From contig CP043547.1 of assembly GCA_009664345.1 (NCBI GenBank), forward strand, positions 5,918,709 to 5,982,708: a DNA stretch of 64,000 nt. Direction: 5' to 3'. A model generated the notes under the pieces. The model was given only the letters and a program-made list of their open reading frames with translations. It did no database searches and was not told the DNA's origin. The stretch comes from Planctomycetales bacterium 10988 (GTDB lineage: Bacteria; Planctomycetota; Planctomycetia; Pirellulales; Pb10988). A program made the translations under genes and the position numbers. This document shows positions 12,571 through 50,635 of the stretch, in pieces. The first letter of the stretch is position 1. The number at the start of each line of letters is the position of its first letter.

Positions 12571-15321
12571 TTAGAGATTTTCACTTCGACCGGTGAGTTC
12601 TTGAATTCGTTTAATCGCGACATCGTTTCCTTGATCGGCAGCCTTGCGATAGAGCCGCAGGGCTTCTTGCAAATCACGGTTGACTCCGAGTCCATTTTCA
12701 TAGAGATACGCAAGGTTCGATTGCCCATATTCATTCCCTTGATCGGCAGCCTTGCGATACCATTTGGCGGCTTCGGAATCATTCTGCGAAACTCCCCAAC
12801 CATTGCGATACATGACCCCGAGGTTGTTTTGAGCAGTGGCATAATTCTGATCCGCCGCGAGTCGATACCATTTGACCGCTTGAGCATAGTCTTGTTTGAC
12901 CGACCAACCATTTTGATACATCAAACCAACGCGGTTTTGAGAGTTCGCATCGCCTTGGTTTCCTGCTTTCAAGTAAAGTGGGAAGGCTTTGTCATAACTC
13001 TGTTCCGTTCCGAAGCCATTGGTATAGCACCAACCGAGATTGTTTAAGGCTTTCAAATGATCTTGCTCGACGGCTTTTTTATACCAGTAGACGGCTTGCT
13101 CGGGATTTTTCTCAACTCCCCAGCCATTGTGGTACATCCAGGCTAGGTTATTTTGGGAATTGGCATGCCCTAACTCGGCGGCTTTGCGGAACCAACGAAC
13201 GGCTTCGTAGTCGTCTTCAGTTACTCCGGTGCCGTAATTCAACAAGACGCCAAGATTATCCATCGCGTAGAGATTTCCATTTTCGGCACCTTTACGATAC
13301 CACTCGGCGGCTTTGGCATAGCTTTGCGGAACACCAGTCCCTCGATAATACATCACGCCGATTTCATTTTGGGCCAGGTTGTAATTCAGTTCGGCGGCCT
13401 TTTGAATCCAGCGAATCCCTTCACTGAGGTCCGAACTCACATCGCCCAGGCCGTCTCGGTAAATGATTCCCATGTTATACATCGCATAGGAATTGTTTTG
13501 ATCGGCCGCTTTGCGATACCAATTCAAGGCCTCACGGTAATTCTGAGAGACCCCATTGCCACGGGCATAGAGAAGCCCCATGTTGAATTGCCCTTGGGCA
13601 TAACCTCCATCGGCAGACTTTTTGCACCATTCGAAAGCTTTCGAATAATTCTGGCTGACACCGATACCTTCTCGATACATATATCCGAGCATGTCTTGAG
13701 CGGCGAGTTGGCCTCCGTTTCCGGCTTTCTCAAACCAGTAAGCTGCCGTGGAAGTATCCTTGCGGACGCCGGTCCCTTCGTAGTAAATCCAACCCATCCG
13801 TTCTTGGGAATAGGCGAAGTCTTGTTCGGCAGCCATGCGGTGCCAGCGGGCGGCTTCGGCATCATCTTTGATGACTCCCCAGCCATTGGCATACATCGTG
13901 CCTAACCCGGATTGGGCATTCGGGAAGTTCTGATCCGCGGATCGACGGAACCAACGCATGGCCTCTTGATAATCCTGAGGGATATCTTCTCCACGTTGAT
14001 AGAGCCAAGCGAGATTGCTTTGGGAAAGGGCATCTCCATTACTTGCCGCTCGCAAATACCACTTTTTGGCAGCGTAGCCATCTTTGTCGACGCCGGAGCC
14101 CCCGTGATACATGCGGGCAAGGCGGAATTGAGCAAAGATTTCCCCTTGTTCCGCGGCCTTTTCATACCACTCTCGTGCGGCAGAAAGGTCTTTGTTCGTA
14201 TGAATTCCCAATTCCAAGCAACCCGCATAGAGCGTTTGCCCGGCGGCTCCACCGGATTCGGCAACTTGCTTCCATTCCGGGAAGCGGAACTTGCCCATCT
14301 CTTCCAACTTTTCGGTAAAGGTCGTATCTCCAGGAGCGCGAAGGTAGGCCTCGCGGATTCGCTTCACTTCTTCCTTCGACTCGTCGGAAGCCAGTTCCGA
14401 AGGGGTCATCGTCGGAGAAGTGATCTTGGAAGAAGTCGAACTGGAACCCGTCGTCAAGGTCACCGGCTTGGCAGTTCCTGATACCGTCGCGACCACGAAA
14501 TCCCCGTTGATCGTTCCGCGTAAGGTTGGTTGTTGGAATTCGAGGAACTCCTTGGCGACATATTCTTTGGTGTTTTGATTGACATAGCTGAAGAGTTCGA
14601 GGATGCGGATTTCACCATCGCCATTGGCGTCCGCTTGTCCTTCCAACCCTCGCAGCAAGAAGTGCGTGAAAACTCCATGCGAAAGATCACTGGCTTCCGT
14701 GGCGAACTCGCCGACATCACAACTGGTGAGTGTCAGAATTCCTTGCGGGGGACGTTGCAAGGTTCCCATCAAACTTCGAGGGTTGTTTCCAATTACACTT
14801 CGTCGCCCCGGCATCTCGACGCGATTTCGGCAAGCATCCACAATCAACAGCTTTTGGCCTGCTTGACAATTTTCCATCTGCTCGTAAATCCACTCGATCG
14901 AAAGCAACGAGTCTTTCTCAGTAGGATGGGCATCGAGCGGGCAGAAGAAACTCTCTTCCCCAAGATGCAAGCCATGTCCGGCAAAGGCCACCAACACGGT
15001 ATCGTCTTTGTCCGCCAAGTTCAGAATCACCCGCAAGGTTCGTTCGATGAGCGGTTTGGTGGGCAGCATCTTGCGATCGGTGGCCGAGTCATGCATTAAG
15101 AAGACACGTTGGTCGGCAAACCCACTGTTTAAGAGTTGTTTATGAAGCCCTTGAATATCGGTCGAACAGTATTCCAAGTCCGAGATATGGGTGTAATCGT
15201 TGATGCCAATCAATAAGGCATAACGATCTCCCTTCTCTTCGGCCATCCCCAGCCCAACAAAGATCAGGGGAACCATCCAACTTAAACAAAACGACTTGGC
15301 CTTCCACAGTCCAGATAACAT
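12571..15321 (-). CDS. secreted caspase-fold (C14) protein with 15 Sel1 repeats
   Basis: A 916-residue paralogue of its neighbours. Signal peptide 1-27; caspase-like domain about 32-280 with catalytic His H116 (AFAGHGLH) and Cys C164 (VDACRNR). Residues 231-242 (DANGDGEIRILE) are a perfect EF-hand loop (D-x-N-x-D-G-x-I-x-x-x-E), following the core strand GVFTHFLLRGL. A Ser/Thr-rich linker (about 280-310) precedes 15 Sel1 repeats. Calcium control is known for metacaspases; whether this loop binds calcium is inference. The intergenic gap of 187 nt to the third paralogue could contain its own promoter. Confidence 0.92.
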   Translation of the reverse strand: MLSGLWKAKSFCLSWMVPLIFVGLGMAEEKGDRYALLIGINDYTHISDLEYCSTDIQGLHKQLLNSGFADQRVFLMHDSATDRKMLPTKPLIERTLRVILNLADKDDTVLVAFAGHGLHLGEESFFCPLDAHPTEKDSLLSIEWIYEQMENCQAGQKLLIVDACRNRVEMPGRRSVIGNNPRSLMGTLQRPPQGILTLTSCDVGEFATEASDLSHGVFTHFLLRGLEGQADANGDGEIRILELFSYVNQNTKEYVAKEFLEFQQPTLRGTINGDFVVATVSGTAKPVTLTTGSSSTSSKITSPTMTPSELASDESKEEVKRIREAYLRAPGDTTFTEKLEEMGKFRFPEWKQVAESGGAAGQTLYAGCLELGIHTNKDLSAAREWYEKAAEQGEIFAQFRLARMYHGGSGVDKDGYAAKKWYLRAASNGDALSQSNLAWLYQRGEDIPQDYQEAMRWFRRSADQNFPNAQSGLGTMYANGWGVIKDDAEAARWHRMAAEQDFAYSQERMGWIYYEGTGVRKDTSTAAYWFEKAGNGGQLAAQDMLGYMYREGIGVSQNYSKAFEWCKKSADGGYAQGQFNMGLLYARGNGVSQNYREALNWYRKAADQNNSYAMYNMGIIYRDGLGDVSSDLSEGIRWIQKAAELNYNLAQNEIGVMYYRGTGVPQSYAKAAEWYRKGAENGNLYAMDNLGVLLNYGTGVTEDDYEAVRWFRKAAELGHANSQNNLAWMYHNGWGVEKNPEQAVYWYKKAVEQDHLKALNNLGWCYTNGFGTEQSYDKAFPLYLKAGNQGDANSQNRVGLMYQNGWSVKQDYAQAVKWYRLAADQNYATAQNNLGVMYRNGWGVSQNDSEAAKWYRKAADQGNEYGQSNLAYLYENGLGVNRDLQEALRLYRKAADQGNDVAIKRIQELTGRSENL

Positions 15322-15508: not shown

Positions 15509-17857
15509 TCAATCAGACGAAAGTTCCTTGAGCCGATCTTTAGCCATCGAATACCCTTTGTCGGCGGCCTGTTGATACCACTTTTTCGCCTCCGCCAAGT
15601 CTTTGTTAACGCCCCAGCCGTTTTCGAATAACACGCCGACTCGATAGGCCGCAGGCGCGTAATTTAGATGCGCTGCACGGCGATACCATTTCAAGGCTTC
15701 CAAGTAATCTTTGGAAACAATTTCACCTTCCTCGTAATACCTTCCCATTCGATAGACAGCGGCCCATTGGTCCTTTTCGGCCGCTTTGAGGCACCAATCA
15801 AAAGCCTTTTGAAGGTCTCTCTCAACACCCCAGCCATTGGAATACATATAGCTGAGCGAATAGTAGGCTTCTCGATATTTGAGTCTTGCGGAAAGTCGAT
15901 ACCACTTGATGGCTTCTTGATAGTCCTGAGAAACTCCTCGACCCGTTTGATAAAGAAGTCCTAAAGCATATTGAGCGGCGGCATAGTCATGCACTGCCAC
16001 TAACCGATACCACTTTGCGGCCTCCGCATAACTTTGAGAAACTTCAATACCTTTCTCGTAAAACTGTCCTAGTTTATATTGGGCATTCCAAGAGTTCAGC
16101 TCGGCGGCCTGGCGGGTGTATTGCAAAGCCTTGGAAAGGTCCTTTTCAACGTGCCGCCCATATTCATGATAGTAAGCAAGGTTAATCAGCGCGTCCGTAC
16201 CTCCTTGATCCGCGGCGGAGTGAATGAGTTCTAATCCTTTTTCAACATCCTGCTCAACTCCGCCGAGTCCGTTCAAATACACCTGTCCCAAATAGGTCAA
16301 TGCGGGGAGATGCCCGTGGTCAATTGCTCGTTGAATCCAGCGAAGGCCTTCGCTTTGATCTTGCTCAATCTTCCCATAACCGACGAGGTAGATGTCTCCT
16401 AAACGTATCTCCGAATGGCCAAAATTCTGCGCTGCGGCCATTTGGAGCAATGCTAGCCCTTTTTCTTTGTCTTCGATGTATTCTCCTTGGTCGTCCTGGA
16501 CAAAAGACGCTCCAAAGAAATAGAGGTAACCCAGGTTGTGTTGTGCAAAGCAGGACCCTTGATCAACGGCTTTTTGATACCACGTGCGTGCGAGTTCCCA
16601 ATCCATTCCAATCTCGGGATGGGGATTCTGGTGATGCATCCGGGCATATCGGTACTGAGCAAAACTTTCCCCTTGCTCCGCAGCAGTCTGGTACCACTTC
16701 AAGGCGTCTACCACGTTTTTATCTGTAAAAACACCGGTTTCAAGACAAGCTGCATACAGGGTCTGGGCAGCGGTATCTCCTGCGAGTGCCTGTTGTTTCC
16801 ATTCCTCAAAGCTGGCTTCCTCGAAGCGTTGCAACTCGGCCACAAAGGTTTGATCCCTGGGATTCAATCCATATCGATCCGTAAATTGTTGTAAATCCGT
16901 TTTTGCCGAACTGGTGGAAACCTCCTTCGCTTGGACTTCCATCGAGTCTTCACGACTTGGGACATTTAATTCGGGAAGAACCTTGTCATTCGACTCCGCT
17001 GAAGTTCCAGAAACCGTCGCTACCACGAAGTCTCCATTGATGGTTCCGCGAAGGGTAGGCTGTTGGAGTTCAAAGAAATTCTTGCCGACATAGTCTTTGG
17101 TTTGTCGATTGACATAGGCAAAAATTTCAAGGATGCCGATCTCGCCATCTTGATTCATATCCGCTTGCCCACTGAGTCCTTCCAACAAAAAGTGGGTAAA
17201 GACTCCATGAGATAGGTCTTCCGCTTCCATCGCGAACTCGCCAATGTCACAACTAGTGAGTGTCAAGATTCCTTGCGGTGGAGCCTGAATGGTATTCATC
17301 AACCCTTGAGGACTATTGCCTAAGACACTTCGGCGACCAGGAAGTTCAAGCCGATTGCGGCAGGCATCCACAATCAACAACTTCTGCCCGGCGGAACATT
17401 GCTCTAACTGCTCATAAACCCACTTCACGGATAATAAAGTGCTCTTCTCCTCCGGGTGAGCATCCAAGGGGCAGAAGAAACTTTCTTCCCCAAGATGCAA
17501 ACCATGCCCGGAAAAGGCGACCAGAATCGTATCGCCTTTCTGGGCCAAGTTGGTGACCATCTTGAGCAATCGCTCAATGGCCGTTTTGCTCGGAAGAAGC
17601 CGACGATCCTCGACCTCTTCATGCATCATGTAGACACGGTTCTCATCAAAACCGCTTTTGAGAAGTTGCTTTTGCAGTCCTTGAATATCGGTCGCACAGT
17701 ATTCTAAGTCAGACAGATAGTCATAATCATTGATGCCTATTAAGAGAGCGTAGCGAGTTCCAGCTTGGGGGGACTGAGCAAACAAAAAATGAGCCATTAA
17801 GCAGAAAAACATTCCACTCAAGGCTAAACGCTTAAATCCTCGCCAAGGCAACCACAT
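15509..17857 (-). CDS. secreted caspase-fold (C14) protein with 11 Sel1 repeats
   Basis: A 782-residue member of the tandem set and the first to be transcribed. Signal peptide 1-28; caspase-like domain with H118 (AFSGHGLH) and C166 (IVDACRNR). The EF-hand-like loop is at 233-244 (DMNQDGEIGILE). Only 11 Sel1 repeats follow, more diverged than in the other two copies, so repeat number has changed since duplication. Its upstream region contains two copies of a GGTCT-N7-AGACC palindrome. Function as for the paralogues: probably an exported Cys peptidase or a signalling scaffold. Confidence 0.92.
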   Translation of the reverse strand: MWLPWRGFKRLALSGMFFCLMAHFLFAQSPQAGTRYALLIGINDYDYLSDLEYCATDIQGLQKQLLKSGFDENRVYMMHEEVEDRRLLPSKTAIERLLKMVTNLAQKGDTILVAFSGHGLHLGEESFFCPLDAHPEEKSTLLSVKWVYEQLEQCSAGQKLLIVDACRNRLELPGRRSVLGNSPQGLMNTIQAPPQGILTLTSCDIGEFAMEAEDLSHGVFTHFLLEGLSGQADMNQDGEIGILEIFAYVNRQTKDYVGKNFFELQQPTLRGTINGDFVVATVSGTSAESNDKVLPELNVPSREDSMEVQAKEVSTSSAKTDLQQFTDRYGLNPRDQTFVAELQRFEEASFEEWKQQALAGDTAAQTLYAACLETGVFTDKNVVDALKWYQTAAEQGESFAQYRYARMHHQNPHPEIGMDWELARTWYQKAVDQGSCFAQHNLGYLYFFGASFVQDDQGEYIEDKEKGLALLQMAAAQNFGHSEIRLGDIYLVGYGKIEQDQSEGLRWIQRAIDHGHLPALTYLGQVYLNGLGGVEQDVEKGLELIHSAADQGGTDALINLAYYHEYGRHVEKDLSKALQYTRQAAELNSWNAQYKLGQFYEKGIEVSQSYAEAAKWYRLVAVHDYAAAQYALGLLYQTGRGVSQDYQEAIKWYRLSARLKYREAYYSLSYMYSNGWGVERDLQKAFDWCLKAAEKDQWAAVYRMGRYYEEGEIVSKDYLEALKWYRRAAHLNYAPAAYRVGVLFENGWGVNKDLAEAKKWYQQAADKGYSMAKDRLKELSSD

Positions 17858-30253: not shown

Positions 30254-32776
30254 TCAGTTTTGGCAGAGTTGTTTCGGCAGTTGAATGATAAATTCCGTTC
30301 CCGATGAATTACTTTTTGAGAGAATCAAACGTCCGTGATGGGCTTCAATAATTCGGGAAGCGATCGCCATGCCGAGGCCGGTGCCATTTAACTTGGTCGT
30401 GAAGAACGGTTCAAAGACCTTCTTGCGAGCCACGGCGGTCATGCCTTCCCCATTGTCGGCGATCGAGAGGGAGACAAACTCACGCTCTTGCAGAGTGTCA
30501 ACTTCACATTTGACTTTTACCTCGACCGCTTGCTCCCGCGAAGCCAAGGCATTTTCCAAGATGTTCCTGACGACTTGTTCCAAGGCTCGCGGATCACCTT
30601 GCACCATGATAGAACAATCTCCATCCTCAAATTCGATGGATGCCTCTTTCTCAGGCTGGAGAGCAATCAGGCGATCCCAGGTGAGTTTTGTTAGTTCATA
30701 AAGATCAACCCCCTGGTTTTTCAGCTTTAAAGGGGCCGAATAGTTGCGGACCTCTTCGTATAAATAATGGAGGTGATCGCTCGCACGTGAGGCACCGCTC
30801 ACCAGGTCCAATGCGTCGTCGTCCCCTTGAAGCCGCGTTTCCAAAATTTCCAGACACGCCTGCATCTCTTGCAACGTATTGCGGCTTTCGTGGGCAAGCC
30901 CAGCCATCATCTCTCCCATCGCGGCCAGGCGTTCATTTTGCAAGGCCCGCTGCTGTGCTTGACGCAGGGAAGTAATATCTTGGAAAACCAACAATAAATG
31001 ATCCGGCTCATCCGGCCGCTCGATCGTCCGCAGCATGGCATCGATGATTCGCTCGGGATTTTCCTCTTCTGGCGTATTCAGATTGATTTCCCAGCGAAAA
31101 AAAGGCCCTTCCGATCTTTGCAAGATCTGCTTGAGCGAGTGCGACCCAAGCTGGACCAAGGGTTCGCCGATCCCTGAGGAGGTCAATTCCGGCAGGAGTG
31201 TCGCGGCTTCCGGATTGGCGAAACGTAGACGGTGTTCGCCATCGAGAAGAATGACCGCAATCGGTAAGTGTTGAATGACGGTCTCAAGATGGCGTTGTTG
31301 GGCTTCCCGAAGCTTTTTCAATTTCTCCACCGCATCGGCAGCCCGTGCGGCCACATCGTAAAGCAGACCCACTTGTTGCTCAGAGAACGCCTTCGGGGAT
31401 TGATTCCCAAACAGCAGAAAACCAAGCACTTCTTTTTCAGAGCCAACAATCAAGGGAACCAAGAAGAGTGATTCCAAGTTCTCAATGGAAGGCAAATGGG
31501 GAGAAAACGCAACCGATCGAACTACCTCCGTACGTACTTCCAAGGAGGAATATTTCTGCCCGGTCATTTGGGTATAGGTTTGCTGAATGCGTTCAATCAA
31601 GCGATCTCGCAACGCGGGACTGACGGTGCGGACGGATTGAAGGGTCATCTCCCAGCGTCTTCCCGTTCGAAGGACGCTCGCGGAAAGATCATGCGGCACC
31701 GCTCGATAAGAGTGTTGCAGCAAGAGCTTCATCAAGTCTCGGTAGTTGGCGGAGAAGCCTACGCGTTGACTCAGATCAAGCAGGATTTCGAGTTTGAACT
31801 GTTGCTCCATCCAGTTCTCTCGATCATGCAGAAAAGAGAGATGCTGGGCCAATAGCCGAAGAATCAATTCGCCGGCATGAATGTCCTCAGGATGAAATTG
31901 ATCCGCCAGCGAGTCGCGAGCAATCAGAACCATCCCAAACATCTGATGATCATAATTTACTCGAAAACCGACCCCTTGTCGGATCTCTGAGGGAAGCTTG
32001 ACGGCGGCCTCAGTGGTGATTTCTTCGCGACGAAACCCCCAAGGTTTTTCGAGGTCGCGAAATTGTTCGAGCAGGTGTTCTAGAGCCGAGGATTCTTCCG
32101 TCCGGCCATTGGTTTCCGAAGATTCATTTTCATTCGATGATGACGAGCCGAGATTACTGGCGGAAGAGTGAACCAGCTTCTGAGGCGTCGTTGTTGAAAA
32201 CCCAAGCGTATAAATCTGTTCGATTGATCCATGAGTGTTTAGCTCTGCGAGGGCTACGCTGTCCGCTCCGGAAATCCTTTGCAATAATTCTAGGCCCTGT
32301 TCTACGATGGTCGATTTGGTGGAAATGAGCCGCCAATCTTCAATCCCTTGGGAAAGTTGATCCAGTAAGGAATCAGAATACGAATACTGCTTCTCTAGGC
32401 AGGCCTTTCGACAACGATTGAAAAGCTGTTCCAACGCGGCATGGTCTTGATTTGTGCCAGGACCGGGCTCATAGGAAAGCGTGGCGAGTGGGGATTCCGG
32501 TCGCCAATTTTCTTGTGCCGAGAACAAGAAGAGGCGGATTCTTGAGAAGAGGCGATCAAGCTGAAGGATTAATTTTTTCGAATTCCAAGTGTTCTGATGA
32601 GAGACCTCCGCGACTCGCGAGGCCCATTGGGAAAGAGGAATCGCCTCCCGGCGTTGATGAGCAGCTAGCAGGAATGCGCCCAAAGAGGGCAGGCCCTCGA
32701 CAAGCGTTTCGTTGCTTTCTTGAGCAGCGAGCCGTTCGATTCGCTGCTGGACTGCATCCGAAAAAATTCCTGACAT
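30254..32776 (-). CDS. GAF/PAS sensor histidine kinase
   Basis: An 840-residue soluble histidine kinase with no transmembrane segment. Order: unknown helical N terminus (1-140), GAF-like domain (about 150-310, with a Ser/Asn-rich insert), second GAF (about 330-490), PAS (about 500-600), HisKA with phospho-acceptor H629 in 'AGLAHESRNTLQEM', and HATPase_c with N box RNILENA, G1 DNGEGM and G2 GTGLGMAIA. The ATG at 32776 has AAGGAA 10 nt upstream; an ATG at 32809 lacks a site at proper distance. It lies 174 nt after a KaiC-like gene in the same direction. No response regulator is adjacent, so the partner is unknown. Confidence 0.9.
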   Translation of the reverse strand: MSGIFSDAVQQRIERLAAQESNETLVEGLPSLGAFLLAAHQRREAIPLSQWASRVAEVSHQNTWNSKKLILQLDRLFSRIRLFLFSAQENWRPESPLATLSYEPGPGTNQDHAALEQLFNRCRKACLEKQYSYSDSLLDQLSQGIEDWRLISTKSTIVEQGLELLQRISGADSVALAELNTHGSIEQIYTLGFSTTTPQKLVHSSASNLGSSSSNENESSETNGRTEESSALEHLLEQFRDLEKPWGFRREEITTEAAVKLPSEIRQGVGFRVNYDHQMFGMVLIARDSLADQFHPEDIHAGELILRLLAQHLSFLHDRENWMEQQFKLEILLDLSQRVGFSANYRDLMKLLLQHSYRAVPHDLSASVLRTGRRWEMTLQSVRTVSPALRDRLIERIQQTYTQMTGQKYSSLEVRTEVVRSVAFSPHLPSIENLESLFLVPLIVGSEKEVLGFLLFGNQSPKAFSEQQVGLLYDVAARAADAVEKLKKLREAQQRHLETVIQHLPIAVILLDGEHRLRFANPEAATLLPELTSSGIGEPLVQLGSHSLKQILQRSEGPFFRWEINLNTPEEENPERIIDAMLRTIERPDEPDHLLLVFQDITSLRQAQQRALQNERLAAMGEMMAGLAHESRNTLQEMQACLEILETRLQGDDDALDLVSGASRASDHLHYLYEEVRNYSAPLKLKNQGVDLYELTKLTWDRLIALQPEKEASIEFEDGDCSIMVQGDPRALEQVVRNILENALASREQAVEVKVKCEVDTLQEREFVSLSIADNGEGMTAVARKKVFEPFFTTKLNGTGLGMAIASRIIEAHHGRLILSKSNSSGTEFIIQLPKQLCQN

Positions 32777-32865
32777 TCTAATCGTATTCCTTACGGCAAG
32801 TTGCTTCATAATATCGAGAGAAAGGTCTCCTTTATAACTTAGGCAGAAAAGGATTCTTGGAAACG

Positions 32866-32887
32866 TGGGAAAATCATGATCTTCCCA
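32866..32887. promoter_or_regulatory. 22-nt near-perfect palindrome before histidine kinase
   Basis: Half-sites TGGGAAAATCA (32866-32876) and TGATCTTCCCA (32877-32887) match at 10 of 11 positions. It sits 90 nt upstream of the kinase start in the gap after the KaiC-like gene. This fits a dimeric regulator's operator better than a terminator. Confidence 0.45.
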
Positions 32888-32950
32888 GATTCTAGGGGGA
32901 ACACTTTCTCAATCGCCACCAAACATGCTTAGACGGCGAGTTCAAGATCA

Positions 32951-34363
32951 TTACGAAGAGGGAGAGATGAGTTCCGCCCCCTGCTCATTCCAACGCAGTT
33001 GAGTTGGTTCGCGTTGTGGCTTGCAGCCGCGCATCTTCACCACTTGCAGCCGGGTTATTTGGGGGTTGTCTTTTGCAAAAGAGAGATCAATCAGCCCATC
33101 CGCGACGGCAGGTTCGAAGGGGTCTTTTCCCGCTGCTCTCGCGAGACCATTGTTTTCTTGCTCCAGCAGCAGGAACCCGACCGCTCCCATCGAGCTGATT
33201 AATTCGGCAAGCTGATCCAGACGTTCGCGGCGTAGCCGCTGTTCCTCCACCCGATAGCAAAGAGAGGACAGGGAATCGACAACAATACGTCGCGGCTGAT
33301 GTTGAAAGGTCTTTTGGTAGAGAGTGAAAAGTTCTTCGTCCACACGTAATTCCGACAAGCGGCAGGTGTGAATTTGCAAAAGGCCTTCGGAAACAAAAGA
33401 CTCGATATCCCACCCCATTCGCTGGGCTTGTTGGATGATTTGCTTTTCGGAGTTTCCATAACCCACAAAAAGCCCCGGTTCGCCGGCTCGCAAGCCTGCC
33501 AAGAGAAATTGCCAGCTAAGGAGCGTTTTTCCACTCCCGGAAGGGCCACGAAGTAAAACGGTATTTCCCCTGGGAATGCCTCCTTCCAGCATCGGGTCGA
33601 GTCCAGGGATACCGGTTGGGGCTTGAGAAGTTTCAATCGAATGTGAACCGTAATCGGATTGAAGACAGTCAACAAGCTGGGAAAAATCGAGTATTTCGAC
33701 CCCGTCTTTGTTCAAGAGAATCGGATAGCGCTTCATCGGAGCGGCGATCCCCCGAGATTTGATGACTTGGAAATAGCGGCGATGTTCTCCTTCCTCTTCA
33801 TCGAAACTCAGCGAGAAAATCGCATCGACAATGGCCGCTTCTCCGTGAGCGGTCATCTCCTCACGAGGATACTCTCCAATCAACAGAGCCGTGCAGCGTT
33901 TGGTTGCCAGCAGGGAGGCCAAATCAAAGCAGAATAATCGAAAGGCCGCCAAGTCCTTGGTCAGGTCCCGAATCGCTTTGAGGGAATCAATCACGACAAA
34001 TTTGGGCTGATATTTATCGATCTGGGTGTGGATAAACGAAAGCATCCGGTCAAATCGTTCTTCTCGAAGCGAGGAGACCAGATTCGAGAAGATGACCTTT
34101 TGCCCAAATGCGTCCGGATCGAAAAAGGAGAAATGTTGCGCATAACGCAAAACCTTGGGAAGTGGTTCGGACGCAGTGCTCAGATAGAGTGAGCGATAAT
34201 CATCCTTCATTCGAGAAGGATGGAAAAGCATTTGCAGGGCCATTATCGTTTTTCCGACACCAGGAGGCCCTGCAATTAAGTTGACGGAAAAGAGGGGAAG
34301 TCCACCACCTAGAATCCCGTCAAGTTGAGGAATTCCAGTCTTTAGCAGTTGCATCTTGCTCAT
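32951..34363 (-). CDS. KaiC-like double RecA-fold ATPase
   Basis: A 470-residue protein with two KaiC/RadA-type ATPase domains. Walker A motifs are GPPGVGKT (32-39) and GPSGSGKT (273-280); Walker B-like strands are 'FVVIDSLKAI' and 'RIVVDSLSSL'. Both domains open with the KaiC-type 'TGIPQLDGILGGGLP' / 'TGIPGLDPMLEGGIP'. The ATG at 34363 is preceded by GAGAG; an in-frame GTG at 34378 is the alternative. It is shorter than cyanobacterial KaiC (about 519), and no kaiA or kaiB is in the window, so a clock role should not be assumed. It follows a second KaiC-like gene by 62 nt. Confidence 0.9.
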   Translation of the reverse strand: MSKMQLLKTGIPQLDGILGGGLPLFSVNLIAGPPGVGKTIMALQMLFHPSRMKDDYRSLYLSTASEPLPKVLRYAQHFSFFDPDAFGQKVIFSNLVSSLREERFDRMLSFIHTQIDKYQPKFVVIDSLKAIRDLTKDLAAFRLFCFDLASLLATKRCTALLIGEYPREEMTAHGEAAIVDAIFSLSFDEEEGEHRRYFQVIKSRGIAAPMKRYPILLNKDGVEILDFSQLVDCLQSDYGSHSIETSQAPTGIPGLDPMLEGGIPRGNTVLLRGPSGSGKTLLSWQFLLAGLRAGEPGLFVGYGNSEKQIIQQAQRMGWDIESFVSEGLLQIHTCRLSELRVDEELFTLYQKTFQHQPRRIVVDSLSSLCYRVEEQRLRRERLDQLAELISSMGAVGFLLLEQENNGLARAAGKDPFEPAVADGLIDLSFAKDNPQITRLQVVKMRGCKPQREPTQLRWNEQGAELISPSS

Positions 34364-34425
34364 TTCTCTCACTCTCACTCAACGACTGGAAGAAGGGGAG
34401 ATACGACTTCCAATCGACCCTTCGA

Positions 34426-36087
34426 TCAAACCGTTGGTTTATAAACCTCGTCCCCTAGTTTTGTGAGCGAAATGACGAGTCCTTGCTCTCGCAGATTTAA
34501 CAATTCCTGGCGAAGTTCCTCTTCGCGCATCCCTGTCGATTTACTGAGCGTATCGAAACTACAAGCCCCTTCCCGCTTCAATAAATCAAGCAAATACTGA
34601 CTACGAAGCGGCAAGTGCTTTTGTCCGACGGGTTGGGTTCCCACAGGAGTCCCCGTTAGGACCCCGGTCAAGGCTTGCATCGGTTCGAGGATGCGAATCC
34701 CTTCCGGATCAATCTCAAAAGACCAAATCGCTTTACTATGTTGGGAGCCCCGGACCTTGAGCACGCTCATGGCTCGACCCATCCGGCCGGTAGATTCCAC
34801 ATATCGCAGAAGCAAAACATTGTCTGCGATGAACGAAACACCATATTCACTCAATTGGAACGAGCCAAAGAGCTCAGGAATTTCATTGGTTACAATCGTG
34901 GTGATGCCTTCGCGTTTAAATTCACTTACTAGCGAATAGAGATAATCGCGGTAACGGACTTTATCAGGCGTGGCAATTTCCAGGTCTTTGACCGAATCAA
35001 TCAATACCCGTTTCGCACCGATACGAGCGACTTCGGTTCGCACGCGGGCGAAATGCACATCCGGCTGTATTTCCACAGGAGAGCGATGCAATTGATAGAG
35101 AAGGTCTTCCTCTTCAAGCTTTTGCAGGTCCCAACCAAACGTACTGGCAATGGTATTGAGTTGCGCAGGACTTTCTTGAAATGAGACTATCACCCCAGGC
35201 TCGGGTTCCTCAAGGTTCAGGCCCCCGGTGATGAAGTGCAAGCCAAAAAGTGTTTTTCCTGTTCCGGCGCTTCCGGCGATCATCGTCGTTGTTCCGCGGG
35301 GAATTCCGCCTTCCAACATAGCATCGACTTCCGCGATCCCAGTAGAAATCCGATTCAGTTTGTAATCGTACTTGGGAATTTCGCCTGAAGTCCGTATCCG
35401 AGGATAAACATGAAGCCCGTCTTCGGAGATCGTAAAAGGATGGGAACCGTTGAGGAAATCCGTTCCCCGCATTTTGACGACATCGACATAACGCTGATTG
35501 TGCATGCCATGGCGTTGATTTCGCAGATGAATAATCCCATCCGCGATCGCAAAGATCGGTTCGGTCCCGACGGCTTCTTCGTCGTATTCCCCGATCAACA
35601 TGAGCGTTACGCCCCAGGCACTCAATTGGGCAGCTAAGTGATAGCCAAAATCCCGTGACTGCAAGACACTCGTTCCAAGATCGTGAACCGCCTTAAAGCT
35701 ATCAATTGCAATGATTTGTGGCTGATGTTCACGGACCAAATCCAAGATATATTCCAGGCTTCCTTCCATCCCCTTATTGCGGAGGACTTCCGAAATATCC
35801 AGGTGAATCACCTCTTGGCCGATCTTCTCCAAATCAACGAAATTGAACTTTTGAAGGTGGTAAAGCATCTTTACCGAGGGTTCCGATAACGTCCCCAAAT
35901 AAAGTGCTTTGCAGTTCTCTCCCGCGTTGGCATGGATATATTGATAGGCGAAAATCGTCTTTCCCGTGCCGGGCTGACCAAAGACAATATTGATGGAAAG
36001 ACCAGGGAGGCCGCCACGAAGTATCGTATCGAGGCCGGGAATCCCCGTAGGCCGTTGTTCTAAATCAGGGCGTTTCGGTGGGTTCAT
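34426..36087 (-). CDS. KaiC-like double ATPase with C-terminal winged-helix-like tail
   Basis: A 553-residue KaiC-family ATPase with Walker A motifs GQPGTGKT (37-44) and GSAGTGKT (272-279). Each domain opens with 'TGIPGLDTILRGGLP'-like text. Walker B-like strands are 'QIIAIDSFKAV' and 'RVLIDSVKDL'. Beyond the second domain, residues about 488-553 ('YLLDLLKREGACSFDTLSKS' then REEELRQELLNL) look like a winged-helix module that could bind DNA or protein. Its ATG overlaps the stop of the upstream gene (ATGA), indicating translational coupling. Together with the next KaiC-like gene and a histidine kinase it forms a probable signalling operon. Confidence 0.92.
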   Translation of the reverse strand: MNPPKRPDLEQRPTGIPGLDTILRGGLPGLSINIVFGQPGTGKTIFAYQYIHANAGENCKALYLGTLSEPSVKMLYHLQKFNFVDLEKIGQEVIHLDISEVLRNKGMEGSLEYILDLVREHQPQIIAIDSFKAVHDLGTSVLQSRDFGYHLAAQLSAWGVTLMLIGEYDEEAVGTEPIFAIADGIIHLRNQRHGMHNQRYVDVVKMRGTDFLNGSHPFTISEDGLHVYPRIRTSGEIPKYDYKLNRISTGIAEVDAMLEGGIPRGTTTMIAGSAGTGKTLFGLHFITGGLNLEEPEPGVIVSFQESPAQLNTIASTFGWDLQKLEEEDLLYQLHRSPVEIQPDVHFARVRTEVARIGAKRVLIDSVKDLEIATPDKVRYRDYLYSLVSEFKREGITTIVTNEIPELFGSFQLSEYGVSFIADNVLLLRYVESTGRMGRAMSVLKVRGSQHSKAIWSFEIDPEGIRILEPMQALTGVLTGTPVGTQPVGQKHLPLRSQYLLDLLKREGACSFDTLSKSTGMREEELRQELLNLREQGLVISLTKLGDEVYKPTV

Positions 36088-36503
36088 TTCAGTTCTCTCC
36101 GATCCACTTGCGTGAAAATTTGTCGAACTAAAATGTCACCAGTCAGGAGGGCTAATAAGTCAATCAAATTCGCGATAAATTCTTCGAGGGTTTGCTGGAC
36201 GGAATCTTCGGAGAGGTCCGATTTCTCCTCTAACTTGATGTCTTCCAGACGGATTCCGTGATTCGTGACGTTGATCTTTTCCGCAAGGGGTTGAGTGACT
36301 CTAGTGAGAGCCAAGGCACGTTCCACAATGGCGGTGACCGTCACGCGGCCCAGCGTCGGTGTGAGCCGATTCCATAGCGTATCGATCAGCGACTGATACG
36401 CTCCTAGCTGGCTTTCGTGCGAGGAAGAATTTTGGGACTCTTTCAATAATTTTCCGGCAAGCTCCCGAGATGAAAGATTCCTCAAAGAGGTATGGTCTGC
36501 CAT
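36084..36503 (-). CDS. small helical protein heading the KaiC operon
   Basis: A 139-residue protein of unknown family. It is mostly helical and acidic at the C terminus, with 'LIDTLWNRLTPTLGRVTVTA' in the middle and 'EEFIANLIDLLALLTGDILV' near the end. It has no signal peptide. The last four bases (ATGA) overlap the start of the KaiC-like gene, so the two are translationally coupled and the products probably interact. A role as adaptor or regulator of the KaiC-like ATPases is inference from position only. Confidence 0.75.
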   Translation of the reverse strand: MADHTSLRNLSSRELAGKLLKESQNSSSHESQLGAYQSLIDTLWNRLTPTLGRVTVTAIVERALALTRVTQPLAEKINVTNHGIRLEDIKLEEKSDLSEDSVQQTLEEFIANLIDLLALLTGDILVRQIFTQVDRRELK

Positions 36504-37337
36504 TAGTAGTTAAACTCTTCCTCCGATGAAACTCGTATGGTCATCAGTTGAGATGGGTTCCCTCTGCGTTCAATCACAACCTAGGCAAGTCAACAACAAA
36601 AGCACAGAGCCAAATTGAAAAAATGCGATAATTATTCATCAAGACAATCGCAGGTACTGCCAATTCTAACTTTTCAAACAGGAGGTAGATTTCAAGAATT
36701 CCCCTGTCGTTTTCATCTTGTTTTGATGTCACGTTCTAACTTTTTATAAAAAGATTACAACGTGTAACCGGATAAAATTTTTTATTTTGCCGGAAGTCGA
36801 GTTTCGCTTTTGGTTCCACCAAGCATGGTACGATAGAACAATCTATCAGCCGGTTGTCTAGTTTCAAAAAGTGAAATATCCAGTAATTCCTGGAATAAAT
36901 CGAAGGTTAGTCTCTTCATTCGTTCCAGAAGCGCGTTTGTTTTTTTCTTCTCTAGATCTGGAAATTTGTTTATTTTTTTCTTGACTAGAGCGTGGCTTAC
37001 GTTATAACCCAGTTAACTGAACTTCGCGTTCAGAATCCACCTTGGCGACCCAGGGGTGATTTCATTGATGAAATACACTTCCTGACCTTCGGGTTGTTTC
37101 GCCTTACAACACGCATCTACCTCATGACTGGGTTGAATTGCGGGTTTCTGATTGACCACTTCCTATTCGAAAAGCCCCTTGTATTTACAAGTTGTTTGTT
37201 TTTCGACCAATACTGCCTGCCCTTTCAAAAGTGTACTGAACGCACTTTCCAGAAAGCATTCCAGGTAACAATCAGGGGATTTATCATTCGCTAGATGATG
37301 ACTCCCAGACCCGAAAATCTTATCAAAGGTGATGGAA
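36504..37337. other. gene-free interval, 834 nt, upstream of csrA
   Basis: AT-rich region between the divergently read KaiC operon and csrA. A 100-codon frame at 36992-37294 has an improbable composition and I do not accept it. Apart from a candidate promoter at 36981 I see no structured RNA or repeat. Confidence 0.5.
36981..37008 (+). promoter_or_regulatory. candidate sigma70-type promoter, possibly csrA
   Basis: TTGACT (36981-36986), 16-nt spacer, TATAAC (37003-37008). If it drives csrA, the leader is over 300 nt. Confidence 0.35.
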
Positions 37338-37565
37338 ATGTTAGTATTAAGTCGTCGTGAAGGAGAACGGATTCAGATCGGTGATGGGATTTCCTTAACC
37401 GTGGTTTCGGTCAGCAACGGGAAAGTTCGCCTTGGGATTGAGGCTCCGCAAGAGGTAAAGATTGTGCGGGAAGAACTGATCGGAATTCCCCCGCGAGCTA
37501 CAAACCCTGGCAATCCTTCGCTTTCTTCCTCGTATTCTTCGGCGATTCTCTCCAATTCAAAGTAA
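37338..37565 (+). CDS. csrA: carbon storage regulator CsrA
   Basis: A 75-residue CsrA: a small RNA-binding dimer that recognises GGA motifs in mRNA leaders and controls translation. The start MLVLSRREGERIQIGDGI is the family N terminus. GTG (37329) and ATG (37332) lie just upstream in frame, but AAGG at 37326-37329 is correctly spaced for 37338. 'KVRLGIEAPQEVKIVREEL' is the conserved second half with the RNA-binding Arg. The tail after residue 50 is Ser/Pro-rich (NPSLSSSYSSAILS), longer than the E. coli tail. No flagellar genes adjoin it; it is followed after 15 nt by a MOSC gene. Confidence 0.95.
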   Translation: MLVLSRREGERIQIGDGISLTVVSVSNGKVRLGIEAPQEVKIVREELIGIPPRATNPGNPSLSSSYSSAILSNSK

Positions 37566-45273: not shown

Positions 45274-48200
45274 TTACTCTTTCAGGACGACCTTCTCCTT
45301 CGCCTCTGGCTGGTTGTGCCAATCGTTCGCTTGCCAGATTTTCGCACTCGCATCACGACTGGTAGTGATCAGGGAAAGCCGATCGGGGGAAAGTGCCAAG
45401 TCGGTCAGTTCCCGCAGATGGCCCTTCAAGGTAAGGATTTCATCGCCGGTTCGCAGGTCCCAGACCTTTGCCGTTAGATCGTCGCTGGCCGTGACAATCC
45501 GCTGGGGGGCTTCTTGATCTGGATGCGTCGAAGGGGGATAAGGAAAGAATTGCACCGCGCGAATCGCTTCGGCATGTCCTTCGAAAATGCGAATGAGATC
45601 ACCCGATTCCACTTCCCACAGCCGGGCCGTGGCGTCTTGGCATCCGGAAAGAACGTACTTCCCATCGGGGGAAAAGGCAGCATCCAAGGTCCAACCCTGC
45701 ATGGTTCCCGCTAGTCCCAACTTTTTGAGAGGTTTCTCTTGATCAATTGCCCAGATCGTCGAGAAGCCATCTGCCGCTGCGGTGACGACGAACTTGCCAT
45801 CGGGAGAGAAGCGGGCTTGAAAGACTCGATAAAAAGTCCCATCGTCGGCGGAATGAAGCCAACGCTGAAGGATGTTTCCAGATTCTGTTTCCCAAAGGAT
45901 CGCCTGTCCATCATCGCCGGCGGAAACGACGAGTCTTCCATCGGGAGAATGCTCGACACTATTAATATAGCCCCGATGTCCGGGTGGAAGCATCCCCTCG
46001 GAGCGGCCGGTTTCCGCATTCCAACGATGGATAAAACCGTCCCAACTACTCGTGAGCAACTGCGACCCATTGGGGGCATAAGACACTCCGCTTACGGCTC
46101 CCATTTGAGCAAGCATGAGGGCCTGTGTGCCTGTGTTCAAATCCCAGAGCTTGGCTTCAAAATCACCAGCGGTCAGCAAGAATGGCGTGCCCGGCACGAA
46201 CGCCGCCCCAAAGCAAAAGCCTTGATGAGCAGGAATCTCCAGCTTCTTCCGACCAGAGGCCACCTCCCAGAGGGCCACGGTTCCATCCAAACTTGTACTG
46301 ACGAGACTCTTCCCATCGGCAGAAAATTGAACGGAAGTGATCGGCTCTTTGTGGGCTTGGATTTCTTCTGACTGCTCTCCATCTTGCAGATTCCAAAAAC
46401 GCAAGATGCCATCATTCGCCCCGGTGGCGGCCAATTGGCCATCTGTCGGAGAAACATTGACCGCGGACACTCCGACCGGGTGCCGCATGGTTCGATATTC
46501 TTCGCCCGATTCAATATTCCAAAGCGAGGCCACGCGGTCTTCGGAAGCAGTCAGCGCGAAGCGGCCACTTGGCAGGAAGCTAACGGCATTGATCGCCACG
46601 CTATGGGCTTCGAAGAGTTGCACTCGTTCGCCGCTTTGAATGTTCCAAACCCTCGCCCGAGCATTTTCATCGCAAGTGATGGCCAACGTACTATCGGGAG
46701 AGATGGCGATGCAGCGAATGGGGGAGCGATGTTCTTCGAAACGCTGGGCGATTTCGCCCGTTTCGGCATCCCAGACGATAGCCGTGGTGTCGTCTCCTCC
46801 GCTAACGATCCACTTTCCATCAGAGGAATAAGCACAAGCCCGGACCACATCGCGGTGACCTTCTAGAACGCGTTCTTCTACGCCATCGGTCAGGTCCCAA
46901 ACGCGTAAGGTTCTATCCAGACTCGTGGTGACTCCCCATTTCCCATCGGGAGAAACCGCCACGCCGACCACTTTATCACCGTGCCCTTGTTGAAGTGTCA
47001 GCAATTCTTCGCCGGTGGCGGAATCCCAAATCCTAACCGAGCGATCGAGACTCCCGGTGGCGATTCGCTTTCCATCGGGGGAAGTGGTCACCGCCAGGAT
47101 TTCATCTTTATGCCCTTTGAGATCAATGGTTTCTCCAGGGGAGTCCATCTTCCACAGCCGAACCGTTCCGTCCGCACTTGCGGTGACGATGCCACTTTCG
47201 TCAGGCAGGAAATAGGCAGCGATGACCGAACCGCCGTGTCCGCGGAACCGCCGAACTTCTTTCCCTGTTTCTCGATCCCACACTCTCGCCGTATTATCCG
47301 CACTTCCAGAGACCAACCATTTTCCCGAAGGCGAGAACGCCACGGAGTAGACCCTTCCTTGGTGCCCGCTGTTGATCCAGTTCTCCACACAATCGGCAGT
47401 GTTCCAAAGTCGCACGGTTTTGTCATAACTCCCGCTCAGCACTTGCTCGCCATCTTGGGTATAGACCGCCGAGTAGACCGGGCCGGTGTGATGATCATAA
47501 AAGACCAGCCCTTCGCCGATGGAGACCGCTTCCCCGCTGGGGTTGCTTGGCAAAGGGGAACTCTTCGTGCGATTGATACTACTAATGATGACCTTGCCAT
47601 CTTGGCTCGCGGTGAGAACATCCTTGCCATCCGGCGAGAAATCGACGTCCCACACCCAGTCGATGTGATCGGCGAAGAAAACTTCTTCTTCCCCCGATTC
47701 GATATTCCACAGCCTGGCCGTATAGTCCGCCGATCCACTCAGGAGTTGCTTGCCATCTTGGGAATATTCCAAACAGAGAATCGGACCGGCATGATTATCC
47801 AATGTCTGAACAGGACTGTTCGTCTTTTGCGAAAGGTCCCAAAGAAAGATGTTGCTATCATCACCGCCGGTGGCCAAATGCTTTCCATCCGGGGAATAAG
47901 CAACTGCCCGCACATTTCCCTCATGGGCTTGCCACTGACGGACTTGTTCTTGCGTTTTCAAATTCCAAATAGTGAGCATGCCCAAACGATTCGAGGTCGC
48001 GAAGTATTCCCCGTTCGGAGAAAGAGAGGCGGCTTGAAGTGGCTCATCGCCCGGCGTTCCGAGGGTGGAGAAAGCCAATTCGGTAAGGTGTTCCAAACGC
48101 CCCCATTCCCAGTGGCGATAAGGGGGCGAACTCCCAGCGAGTTGCTGACGGGCTTGGCCGAAGCTGTTGCCGGCGATGTTTGCCGAGGCTAGCCCGATCG

Positions 48201-50361
48201 TCGCTACATAGGCCCGATAATTGGCTTCTTCCTTTGCTTGGGCTTCCGAGAGTGCGGACTGTTCGGCTCGTTCCTTTTGTTGTCTAGCCAATTCTTCCGC
48301 GGCGAGGGCGGCGATTCGGGCTTTCTTTTCTTCTTTCGCGGCAGCGATGGCCAGGGCTTCTTGTCGTTCGGCTTCTGCTAAGTTTTTCTCAGCTAGGGCT
48401 TTTTGAGATTCGGCAATTTTCTGTTGATCGATGGCCTTCGCTTCATTTTGCTTGGCCAAGTCTTCCGCTTTTTCGGCCCGTTCCCGTTCGATGCGTTCCA
48501 AGTTGGCCGCTTCCAGGGCGGCATTTCGTTCGGAATGAATCCACAAGGCAGCCACCGCCAGGATAATCAATACCGAGATGACGAGGGCTTGCACGGTTTT
48601 CAAGGCAGCGGCGAGGCGGCGTTTTCTTGCTTTGCGTTCTGCTTGGGCCGCGGAAATTTCTTGATGAAGCGATTGATGTTCGGCGAGATGTTTATCCAAT
48701 AACGAATCGGCGAGGTCCAAGTCTCCCTTGGCGAAAGCCGTGGCCGCGTATCGTTTTTGGGCTTCGTAAATGCCGGCTTGGGCTTGAGGATTTTCGGGCC
48801 AGAGTTCGTAGGCTTCGCGATATCCAAAAAGTGCTTTTGCGAAGTCGTCGTAATCTTTCGTATTTTCTGCTCGCAATAAATCTTGAGAGGCTTTCGACGA
48901 GAGCAGGATACTTTCCGAATGGGAACGGTAATCCCGAATCGCTTGTTGAAAATCTTTCACGGAAGCATAACGGTGTTTCGGCATGGTCGCCATCGCATGC
49001 ATGGCGATATCGAGTAACTCGCCGGATTTGGTCGTCGGCTCAATGCGATTCATGCCTACATTAAAGAGGCAACTCATCGCATCTTTTCCGTTATGCGGCG
49101 GATATCCGGTGACGATTTCAAAGAGGATTGCCCCCAGGAGATAGATGTCGCTGGCGATGCCGATTTTCGAGAGCGGGCCAGTCGCCATCTCCGGAGCCAT
49201 ATAGGCCGGACTTCCGCAAAGCATCACCCGTTGATCTTTCCAGGTTGCCCGACTTTCCTCGGAGACATCGAGGGCCAAACCCCAGTCCATGAGCAGGACT
49301 TCGCCAAAATTCCCCATCATCACGTTCTCAGGCTTGAGATCGCGATGGATGAAATTTCGCGAATGGGCAAATGCCATCGCATCGCAAACCCGAAGCAACG
49401 CATCGAGATTTTCATCAAGCGACATATGGTTGATCGTCTCAGACCACGGGGTGCCGTTCACTCGTTTCATGGCATAAAACAGCGTGCCCGCGTCATTGGC
49501 TCCGAGATCATGCACCGGAACGATATTCGGATGGTCCAAGGCCCCGGTGACGGCTGCTTCGGCCAGAAATTGATTTCGCTGCACCGGATTGTTCGCCATT
49601 TCCGGTTTCAACATTTTCAAGGCAATTTCGCGATCGATCGAAGTTTGCCGGGCAAGATAAACAACGCCCATGCCCCCTTGTCCCAATCGATCCAGCAATT
49701 CAAACTCCGCCGAACTGTCCAAACCCTTTGCTTGGGCAGGGTCACGGAGGGTAACGCTTCGCTGTCGAACGGAAAGAGACGTTTGCCCTGATTTCCAAAG
49801 TTCGCTGGGTTTTGTGCCGAAAGGCTTGAGCGTTTGATTGACGTTCTTCCTGCCGGCCGCCACTGATCCCCAAGTCGAGGAAATACTCTCCTGCAAATCA
49901 TCCGCAAGTCCCGCAAACGGATCACCCGAATCCGATGGAGGCTCAGCCATTTCGCCATCACTGGGGGGAATCGTGGTATCCGAGAAGTTCTCCGAAGCAG
50001 AAGCTTGCCCTACTACCGTTGCTTCGAAAGGATTGATCGGAGGCTTCTGGGAAGTTGGAGGGATTGTCTGCTGGCTGGCAAACTCTTTCAACGCTGGGTC
50101 GTCTTCATCTAAAGTCGCATCCGGGTCTACTTCTTCTTCCGGGGAAATCGTATCTTCCGAGTAAGACTGTGCCGGAGAATATTGAGTCTGCTGAGCACTA
50201 AAATCGGCTTTCTCCTCCCCCGGCTCTTCTGGGAAAGAAGTCTCCGAACTTTCCGGCGAAAGCCGCGTCTTTCCTAACTCTTCCTGGGGAGAACCCGGAG
50301 AAGGGTTGGTCTTCTGAGAATCGAACTCGGATGAATCGGAAGGAGAACGGTCCATAGTCAT
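45274..50361 (-). CDS. transmembrane Ser/Thr protein kinase with 21 WD40 repeats
   Basis: A 1695-residue protein. Residues 1-215 are acidic, Ser/Pro/Glu-rich and disordered. The Hanks-type kinase (about 221-480) has the Gly loop GQGGMGVVY, HRDLKPEN (H339) and a DWG triplet (359-361) in place of DFG. After a helical region comes one transmembrane segment (VISVLIILAVAALWI), then an Ala/Glu/Lys-rich coiled coil. Last are 21 WD40 repeats (about 790-1690), the number needed for three seven-bladed propellers. The ATG at 50361 has GGAAA upstream. Kinase in the cytoplasm with a sensing or scaffolding propeller array beyond the membrane is the usual planctomycete reading. Confidence 0.93.
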   Translation of the reverse strand: MTMDRSPSDSSEFDSQKTNPSPGSPQEELGKTRLSPESSETSFPEEPGEEKADFSAQQTQYSPAQSYSEDTISPEEEVDPDATLDEDDPALKEFASQQTIPPTSQKPPINPFEATVVGQASASENFSDTTIPPSDGEMAEPPSDSGDPFAGLADDLQESISSTWGSVAAGRKNVNQTLKPFGTKPSELWKSGQTSLSVRQRSVTLRDPAQAKGLDSSAEFELLDRLGQGGMGVVYLARQTSIDREIALKMLKPEMANNPVQRNQFLAEAAVTGALDHPNIVPVHDLGANDAGTLFYAMKRVNGTPWSETINHMSLDENLDALLRVCDAMAFAHSRNFIHRDLKPENVMMGNFGEVLLMDWGLALDVSEESRATWKDQRVMLCGSPAYMAPEMATGPLSKIGIASDIYLLGAILFEIVTGYPPHNGKDAMSCLFNVGMNRIEPTTKSGELLDIAMHAMATMPKHRYASVKDFQQAIRDYRSHSESILLSSKASQDLLRAENTKDYDDFAKALFGYREAYELWPENPQAQAGIYEAQKRYAATAFAKGDLDLADSLLDKHLAEHQSLHQEISAAQAERKARKRRLAAALKTVQALVISVLIILAVAALWIHSERNAALEAANLERIERERAEKAEDLAKQNEAKAIDQQKIAESQKALAEKNLAEAERQEALAIAAAKEEKKARIAALAAEELARQQKERAEQSALSEAQAKEEANYRAYVATIGLASANIAGNSFGQARQQLAGSSPPYRHWEWGRLEHLTELAFSTLGTPGDEPLQAASLSPNGEYFATSNRLGMLTIWNLKTQEQVRQWQAHEGNVRAVAYSPDGKHLATGGDDSNIFLWDLSQKTNSPVQTLDNHAGPILCLEYSQDGKQLLSGSADYTARLWNIESGEEEVFFADHIDWVWDVDFSPDGKDVLTASQDGKVIISSINRTKSSPLPSNPSGEAVSIGEGLVFYDHHTGPVYSAVYTQDGEQVLSGSYDKTVRLWNTADCVENWINSGHQGRVYSVAFSPSGKWLVSGSADNTARVWDRETGKEVRRFRGHGGSVIAAYFLPDESGIVTASADGTVRLWKMDSPGETIDLKGHKDEILAVTTSPDGKRIATGSLDRSVRIWDSATGEELLTLQQGHGDKVVGVAVSPDGKWGVTTSLDRTLRVWDLTDGVEERVLEGHRDVVRACAYSSDGKWIVSGGDDTTAIVWDAETGEIAQRFEEHRSPIRCIAISPDSTLAITCDENARARVWNIQSGERVQLFEAHSVAINAVSFLPSGRFALTASEDRVASLWNIESGEEYRTMRHPVGVSAVNVSPTDGQLAATGANDGILRFWNLQDGEQSEEIQAHKEPITSVQFSADGKSLVSTSLDGTVALWEVASGRKKLEIPAHQGFCFGAAFVPGTPFLLTAGDFEAKLWDLNTGTQALMLAQMGAVSGVSYAPNGSQLLTSSWDGFIHRWNAETGRSEGMLPPGHRGYINSVEHSPDGRLVVSAGDDGQAILWETESGNILQRWLHSADDGTFYRVFQARFSPDGKFVVTAAADGFSTIWAIDQEKPLKKLGLAGTMQGWTLDAAFSPDGKYVLSGCQDATARLWEVESGDLIRIFEGHAEAIRAVQFFPYPPSTHPDQEAPQRIVTASDDLTAKVWDLRTGDEILTLKGHLRELTDLALSPDRLSLITTSRDASAKIWQANDWHNQPEAKEKVVLKE

Positions 50362-50635
50362 GGTTGGATTTCCGGTCAGTTGCAAACTTGGGGAATCAAG
50401 GCAGATCGGAAGCGTAAACGAGGGTTACTCCAAAATGGTTCAAATTAGGTGAACTTCCGGAGATTCTTCTATTGAGAATACCTTTCTCCTAGCTGAAATG
50501 ATAGCGGTTTCCATTCCCGCTTGTTGATCGGAAGAAGTTCGCGACGGATAGTTTCTCAAGTTTTCATTCGTCTTCCTGTGAGGAAGCCCCTATAATAAGG
50601 ACGACGTTCACAGGCAACCTGCAAAGGAATCGCAC

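Follow-up and report, generated by a model that had tools for sequence, protein, structure and literature searches.

To our knowledge, no role is known for most KaiC relatives in bacteria. A 64,000-nucleotide stretch of DNA from Planctomycetales bacterium 10988 (the window) raises the question of what such relatives may do, as two double-domain KaiC-like ATPases are encoded there together with a small protein and a soluble histidine kinase (Table 1). The original prediction read these genes as an operon for a signalling device outside the clock, with a dedicated small partner. We put the probability at roughly 0.6 that the operon is indeed a KaiC-type two-component signalling module of a non-clock kind.

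Table 1 Features of the locus, with positions counted from the first letter of the window
Feature	Position	Strand	Basis or remark
Small helical protein, 139 aa	36084..36503	-	First gene of the operon; family without prior description
kaiC1, 553 aa, double-domain KaiC-like ATPase with C-terminal winged-helix-like tail	34426..36087	-	PF06745, 8.1e-90
Winged-helix-like tail of kaiC1	34426..34632	-	Below-cut-off Pfam matches; model and Foldseek of 34426-34698
kaiC2, double-domain KaiC-like ATPase, second domain strongly degenerate	32951..34363	-	PF06745, 1.7e-73
Soluble histidine kinase, GAF/PAS	30254..32809	-	Pfam domains
Intergenic region between the operon and divergent csrA	36504..37331	.	ORF calls

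The four genes lie on one strand at the positions originally predicted, and the small gene overlaps kaiC1 by ATGA. The predicted gaps of 62 nt (kaiC1/kaiC2) and 174 nt (kaiC2/kinase) are correct for ATG starts at 34363 and 32776, but both vary with the start codon chosen: the longer kaiC2 frame (GTG 34378, stop end 32951) leaves 47 nt and the longest kinase frame (ATG 32809, stop 30254) leaves 141 nt. Judging from this spacing, we infer that the four genes form one operon. Minus-strand terminator-like sites were found in none of the operon gaps, in a scan whose counts were at chance level. All four reading frames are open and of full length. In the genome, a single contig of 6.65 Mb, no KaiC gene other than kaiC1 and kaiC2 is double; PF06745 has two more matches, each single and weak. 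A csrA gene (37332-37562, plus strand, 77 aa, PF02599 7.1e-22) is divergent to the small gene over a spacer of ~830 nt. Elsewhere in the window, three tandem minus-strand genes (9497-12226, 12571-15321 and 15509-17857) each encode a caspase domain (PF00656) with many Sel1 repeats in 782-916 aa, and a 1703-aa protein (45274-50385, minus strand) reads, by eye only, as a Ser/Thr kinase with WD40 repeats.

Both ATPases contain two PF06745 domains apiece and, as predicted, two intact Walker A motifs; the Walker B aspartate is also present in the alignment of the kaiC1 and kaiC2 ATPase domains. The catalytic glutamate pair, by contrast, is broken in all four domains, a feature absent from the original prediction: it reads SE and QE in kaiC1 and SE and GN in kaiC2, the first glutamate being lost in four of four. 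At the phosphosite pair of the last domain, kaiC1 has S/F (serine at the S431 position, phenylalanine at T432) and kaiC2 has P/A, so neither protein carries the glutamate pair or the S/T phosphosite pair of circadian KaiC. Scores also fell below the circadian KaiC cut-offs, at 210.3 versus 546.25 (TIGR02655) and 274.9 versus 408 (PRK09302) for kaiC1 and at 112.3 and 189.3, respectively, for kaiC2. Replacement of both glutamates (E62Q/E63Q) is reported to abolish CI ATPase activity in Rhodobacter KaiC (PMC10076222); we infer that loss of the first glutamate alone would make hydrolysis slow or absent. With their Walker motifs retained but the glutamate pair broken, each of the four domains is likely to bind nucleotide and to cleave it slowly or not at all. 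The predicted lack of kaiB held for the whole genome, in which no match exceeded the cut-off (best 25.5 versus 27 bits, in part of a 512-aa frame). Together, the broken glutamate pairs, the altered phosphosites and the lack of KaiB over cut-off point to a KaiC/two-component device of a non-clock kind.

A C-terminal winged-helix-like tail had been predicted for one ATPase only, and kaiC1 has it, with support from a model and Foldseek. The 90 residues modelled run H-H-H-E-E, with a pLDDT of 64-86 over the last 60, and the best Foldseek matches were mostly winged-helix regulators, at high probability and none at E<=0.001; Pfam matches were weak and under cut-off. The tail is absent from the other five aligned KaiCs. 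A role in anti-phage defence was rejected: PADLOC found nothing for the small protein and nothing for the kinase, and its matches for kaiC1 and kaiC2 were weak (best E 2.9e-6), all to models of ATPase or winged-helix type.

No Pfam or NCBIfam profile matches the small protein over cut-off, and a single-sequence (BLAST-level) search of 146 genomes from the order matched one. We nevertheless rejected the idea that it is an orphan, as profiles recovered a fast-evolving family. The kaiC1 relatives of best identity in 57 genomes, in G022 (36%) and G051 (38% over part), are each closely preceded by a small gene, and the encoded proteins are 25 and 28% identical to the 139-aa protein when aligned. 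In a blind test, a nine-protein profile found the gene directly upstream of KaiC in L034 (2.8e-23) and L030 (8.1e-23), and a held-out profile of nine other members retrieved the window member at E 1.7e-8 and the G390 member at 6e-7, against 0.31 for the best unrelated of 3724 ORFs. The family appeared rare in Planctomycetota, in 2 of 392 genomes with an early three-row profile and a sample that evidently did not include G022 and G051. All 14 members checked are absent from Pfam and NCBIfam, and we found no description of the family in the literature or in profile libraries (Pfam, NCBIfam, PADLOC). KaiB was rejected as an identity for the small protein: none of the 14 members matched PF07689 at E<=1, and the model, built from six sequences, shows a bundle of helices with moderate confidence (pLDDT 72.8, pTM 0.67). 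Foldseek with this model returned nothing at E<1; solved KaiA and KaiB structures are not among the structure-search matches listed, which excludes nothing. Comparison with PDB sequences gave just designed helical repeats and chance matches, and a resemblance to the mycobacterial proteasome activator Bpa was discarded, its VIA-align Z of 5.4 being far too low for helical bundles.

Profile searches for the small family matched at least 11 of 250 genomes in Rhizobacter's order and at least 39 of 195 in Corallococcus's phylum, giving at least 54 matches, 41 of which were fetched as loci. A KaiC-like gene lies directly downstream of the small gene in 31 of the 41, with an ATGA overlap in 26; two loci are cut by contig ends and eight have no KaiC within ~1.4 kb. 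Both KaiC-less loci that were checked (L098, and L110 for the L083 region) have a histidine kinase, and in L118 a kinase follows the small gene with overlapping codons; some downstream ORF chains were chosen by length and GC3, and later steps in them are unreliable. Plasmid arrangements in Paracoccus and Caballeronia run small gene, KaiC, HWE kinase, response regulator and small gene, KaiC, diguanylate cyclase. In G390 (L025, 240-12037) the small gene sits in a chemosensory-type operon among receiver/GAF proteins, an annotation made by eye save for one Pfam-checked receiver-GAF protein. In the same locus the small gene stands just before a receiver/GGDEF-type protein, with an ATGA overlap.

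Approached from the KaiC side, a scan of genome contigs with kaiC1 as the lone query gave no matches; with a KaiC alignment it gave 33 loci, and a similar small ORF lies upstream in L029, L031 and L047. Our census covered 55 KaiC loci (30 and 25 from separate searches). The small gene stands upstream of 20 of the 26 KaiCs with an EP..K N-terminal motif other than SEPHDK (19 of 25 distinct, L030 and L127 being the same) and of none of the 29 other KaiCs, nine SEPHDK loci included, in a census whose KaiC profile was partly made of small-linked members and is biased towards them. The EP..K KaiCs without it are L129 (which starts at a contig end), L132 (none) and L151 (interrupted frames), together with L033, L139 and L140, where a receiver protein occupies the small gene's slot (Pfam-checked for L033 and L139). 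This exchange points to an input in the upstream position that tunes KaiC or the kinase; we found no description of it in the literature.

The motif, [SG]EP..K, reads TLSEPSVK in kaiC1 and TASEPLPK in kaiC2, and we found no published description of [SG]EP as a branch marker. When the domains of 20 proteins are aligned, the N-terminal domains of the small- or receiver-linked branch have [SG]E at the catalytic glutamate pair in 17 of 17 cases; their later domains mostly keep the first glutamate (EE, EQ, EK), with the window (QE, GN) and L033 (QE) as exceptions. The window ATPases are the most degenerate of those compared. EE is kept in L013 and L053, which adjoin real KaiB genes (3.6e-24 and 3.4e-19). 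The kaiB-kaiC pair of L013 comes from a genome of the same order as the window (G047), its EE and S/T residues intact. A tree of 58 KaiC rows contains one 28-row branch (93/84) that gathers all 22 small-linked and three receiver-linked proteins with kaiC2 (win2), L129 and L132; L127, L128, L130, L135, L141, L142, L151, L152, L155, L032 and L111b were left out as the same gene, near-copies, partial or short. On this tree the small-gene label requires five changes, compared with a mean of 17.8 after shuffling and with none of 500 shuffles as low, a clustering to which near-copies add. A recent kaiC1/kaiC2 duplication found no support, as the two stand at different places in the tree, but both branches are long and the placement of kaiC2 is unsure.

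On the output side, the window kinase has the GAF (365-495), PAS (507-612), HisKA (631-691) and HATPase_c (738-847) domains of a predicted two-component histidine kinase. HATPase_c is over cut-off (2e-22), HisKA reaches 21.7 bits versus a cut-off of 26.9, and the phospho-acceptor histidine was spotted by eye. The N-terminal ~340 aa (residues 1-341) have no Pfam match, and the KaiB/SasA-like N-terminal domain published for kinases of the KaiC-HK group (PMC3164672) is itself divergent. A KaiC-specific GAF subtype was unsupported (E 0.087 versus myxobacterial KaiC-linked kinases). Among 15 loci scanned with Pfam, HATPase_c lies downstream of KaiC in 13 (L106, L107, L109, L111, L112, L113, L114, L119, L120, L030, L033, L034 and L139) and GAF at E<=1e-5 in seven (L109, L111, L112, L113, L120, L033 and L139). 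GGDEF accompanies HATPase_c in L114 and L034 and stands alone in L047, and L031 has no Pfam match; outside the 15, L029 and L117 have no clear kinase ORF. Myxobacterial KaiC-like proteins carry three ATPase domains per chain (L106, L107, L109 and L113), split 2+1 between genes in L111, and these three-domain and split forms offer a parallel to the two ATPase genes of the window.

Gene order across these genomes shows that the genes for the small protein, this KaiC branch and a predicted cytoplasmic histidine kinase stay linked, and the codons of the small and KaiC genes usually overlap. Checked for conservation, the module of the original prediction is retained with variation; the precise arrangement of four genes, two of them for ATPases, was not encountered elsewhere, and a tandem of KaiC genes in this form was not seen in the other loci examined. 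The linkage extends over Planctomycetota, Myxococcota, Acidobacteriota and Pseudomonadota, and on that ground a predicted KaiC-based signalling role outside the clock is well supported. The partner is less exclusive than had been proposed: the family does immediately precede this KaiC branch, yet the eight KaiC-less loci and the chemosensory-type operon of G390 indicate that it is not strictly dedicated to KaiC.

The physical mechanism that we propose is deduced from sequence. The KaiC proteins would form rings acting as slow or non-hydrolysing switches of nucleotide state, and the small protein would dock on the ring, the kinase or both, taking the role of the receiver domain in sister loci. 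The resulting complex would gate autophosphorylation of the GAF/PAS kinase by nucleotide state, and the kinase would pass the signal to a response regulator whose gene lies elsewhere; through its winged-helix tail, kaiC1 may gain a nucleic-acid or protein contact. We tentatively entertain a bolder version, in which the small family is a functional counterpart of KaiB or KaiA: a ring-binding regulator, all-helical and unrelated to them, that evolved jointly with a pseudo-ATPase KaiC branch, is interchangeable with a receiver and together with that branch gates a histidine kinase by nucleotide state. If true, this would constitute a second, clock-free wiring of KaiC to two-component signalling in at least four phyla.

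Against the preferred module, the small protein may have a main partner other than KaiC, given the loci with the small gene and a kinase but no KaiC; L132, with a KaiC of the EP..K type and no small gene, also counts against it. The small protein could instead serve the kinase, with KaiC a separate input that is freely lost or replaced, as the eight KaiC-less loci, the kinases following the small gene in L098, L110 and L118, and its place between receiver/GAF proteins in G390 would allow. We regard this as rather unlikely, since the small gene directly adjoins KaiC in 31 of 41 loci, mostly with overlapping codons, and the eight exceptions, found in genomes of much the same size (~9 Mb), may represent one event. 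An hourglass timer, in which KaiC1 slowly phosphorylates its sole remaining serine and so tells the kinase how much time has passed, is improbable. The serine at the S431 position is kept, and KaiC-kinase operons without KaiB have been taken as hourglass candidates, as in the Ramlibacter proposal (PMC3164672); yet phenylalanine stands at the T432 position, the first catalytic glutamate is missing from both kaiC1 domains, the genome has no KaiB over cut-off, and the same paper states that homologues unable to phosphorylate a pair of residues probably do not work as cyclic timers.

The winged-helix-like tail could also take the ATPase to a promoter as a DNA-associated regulator, the kinase being incidental, a reading that we consider very improbable because the other five aligned KaiCs lack the tail and the kinase linkage is kept across phyla. 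Least of all do we expect chance neighbours or a decaying relic: degenerate catalytic residues and rarity in Planctomycetota would fit, but the four frames are open over their full length and the linkage is conserved in other genomes. Under the preferred reading as a non-clock signalling module, an orphan-looking KaiC branch becomes a testable system through its conserved partner, its defining motif and the kinase output that recurs with it, and such a system would show how KaiC-type ATPases can signal without KaiB.

Legionella has an operon of kaiBC with a histidine kinase. The locus resembles such operons, also described in Rhodobacter (PMC5520375), in joining KaiC and kinase, and differs from them in having no KaiB and in its lost catalytic and phosphosite residues. 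A 2011 paper (PMC3164672) described KaiC-kinase operons that lack KaiB; its third group has kaiC near REC, HK or GGDEF genes, and most members have at most one phosphosite. Closest in arrangement is Ramlibacter Rta_04330/Rta_04340 from that paper, a KaiC upstream of a histidine kinase, without KaiA or KaiB, for which a signalling role was proposed; the small-protein family, the EP motif and the receiver/small exchange would set our loci apart from those operons as described in its text, hypothetical proteins being marked in a figure. Archaeal KaiC-like signalling hubs (Makarova 2017, via PMC5847659) likewise place KaiC-like ATPases, some with degenerate domains, in signal transduction. Myxobacterial KaiC homologues (PMC11832031, 2024) are similar in that several occur per genome, mostly without KaiB and many with one or no phosphosite, and our loci differ from them as described there in the small partner and the kinase linkage of KaiC. 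Whereas KaiC-kinase operons without KaiB are already known, the small family, the receiver swap and the [SG]EP branch marker are, judging by the descriptions we found, new here.
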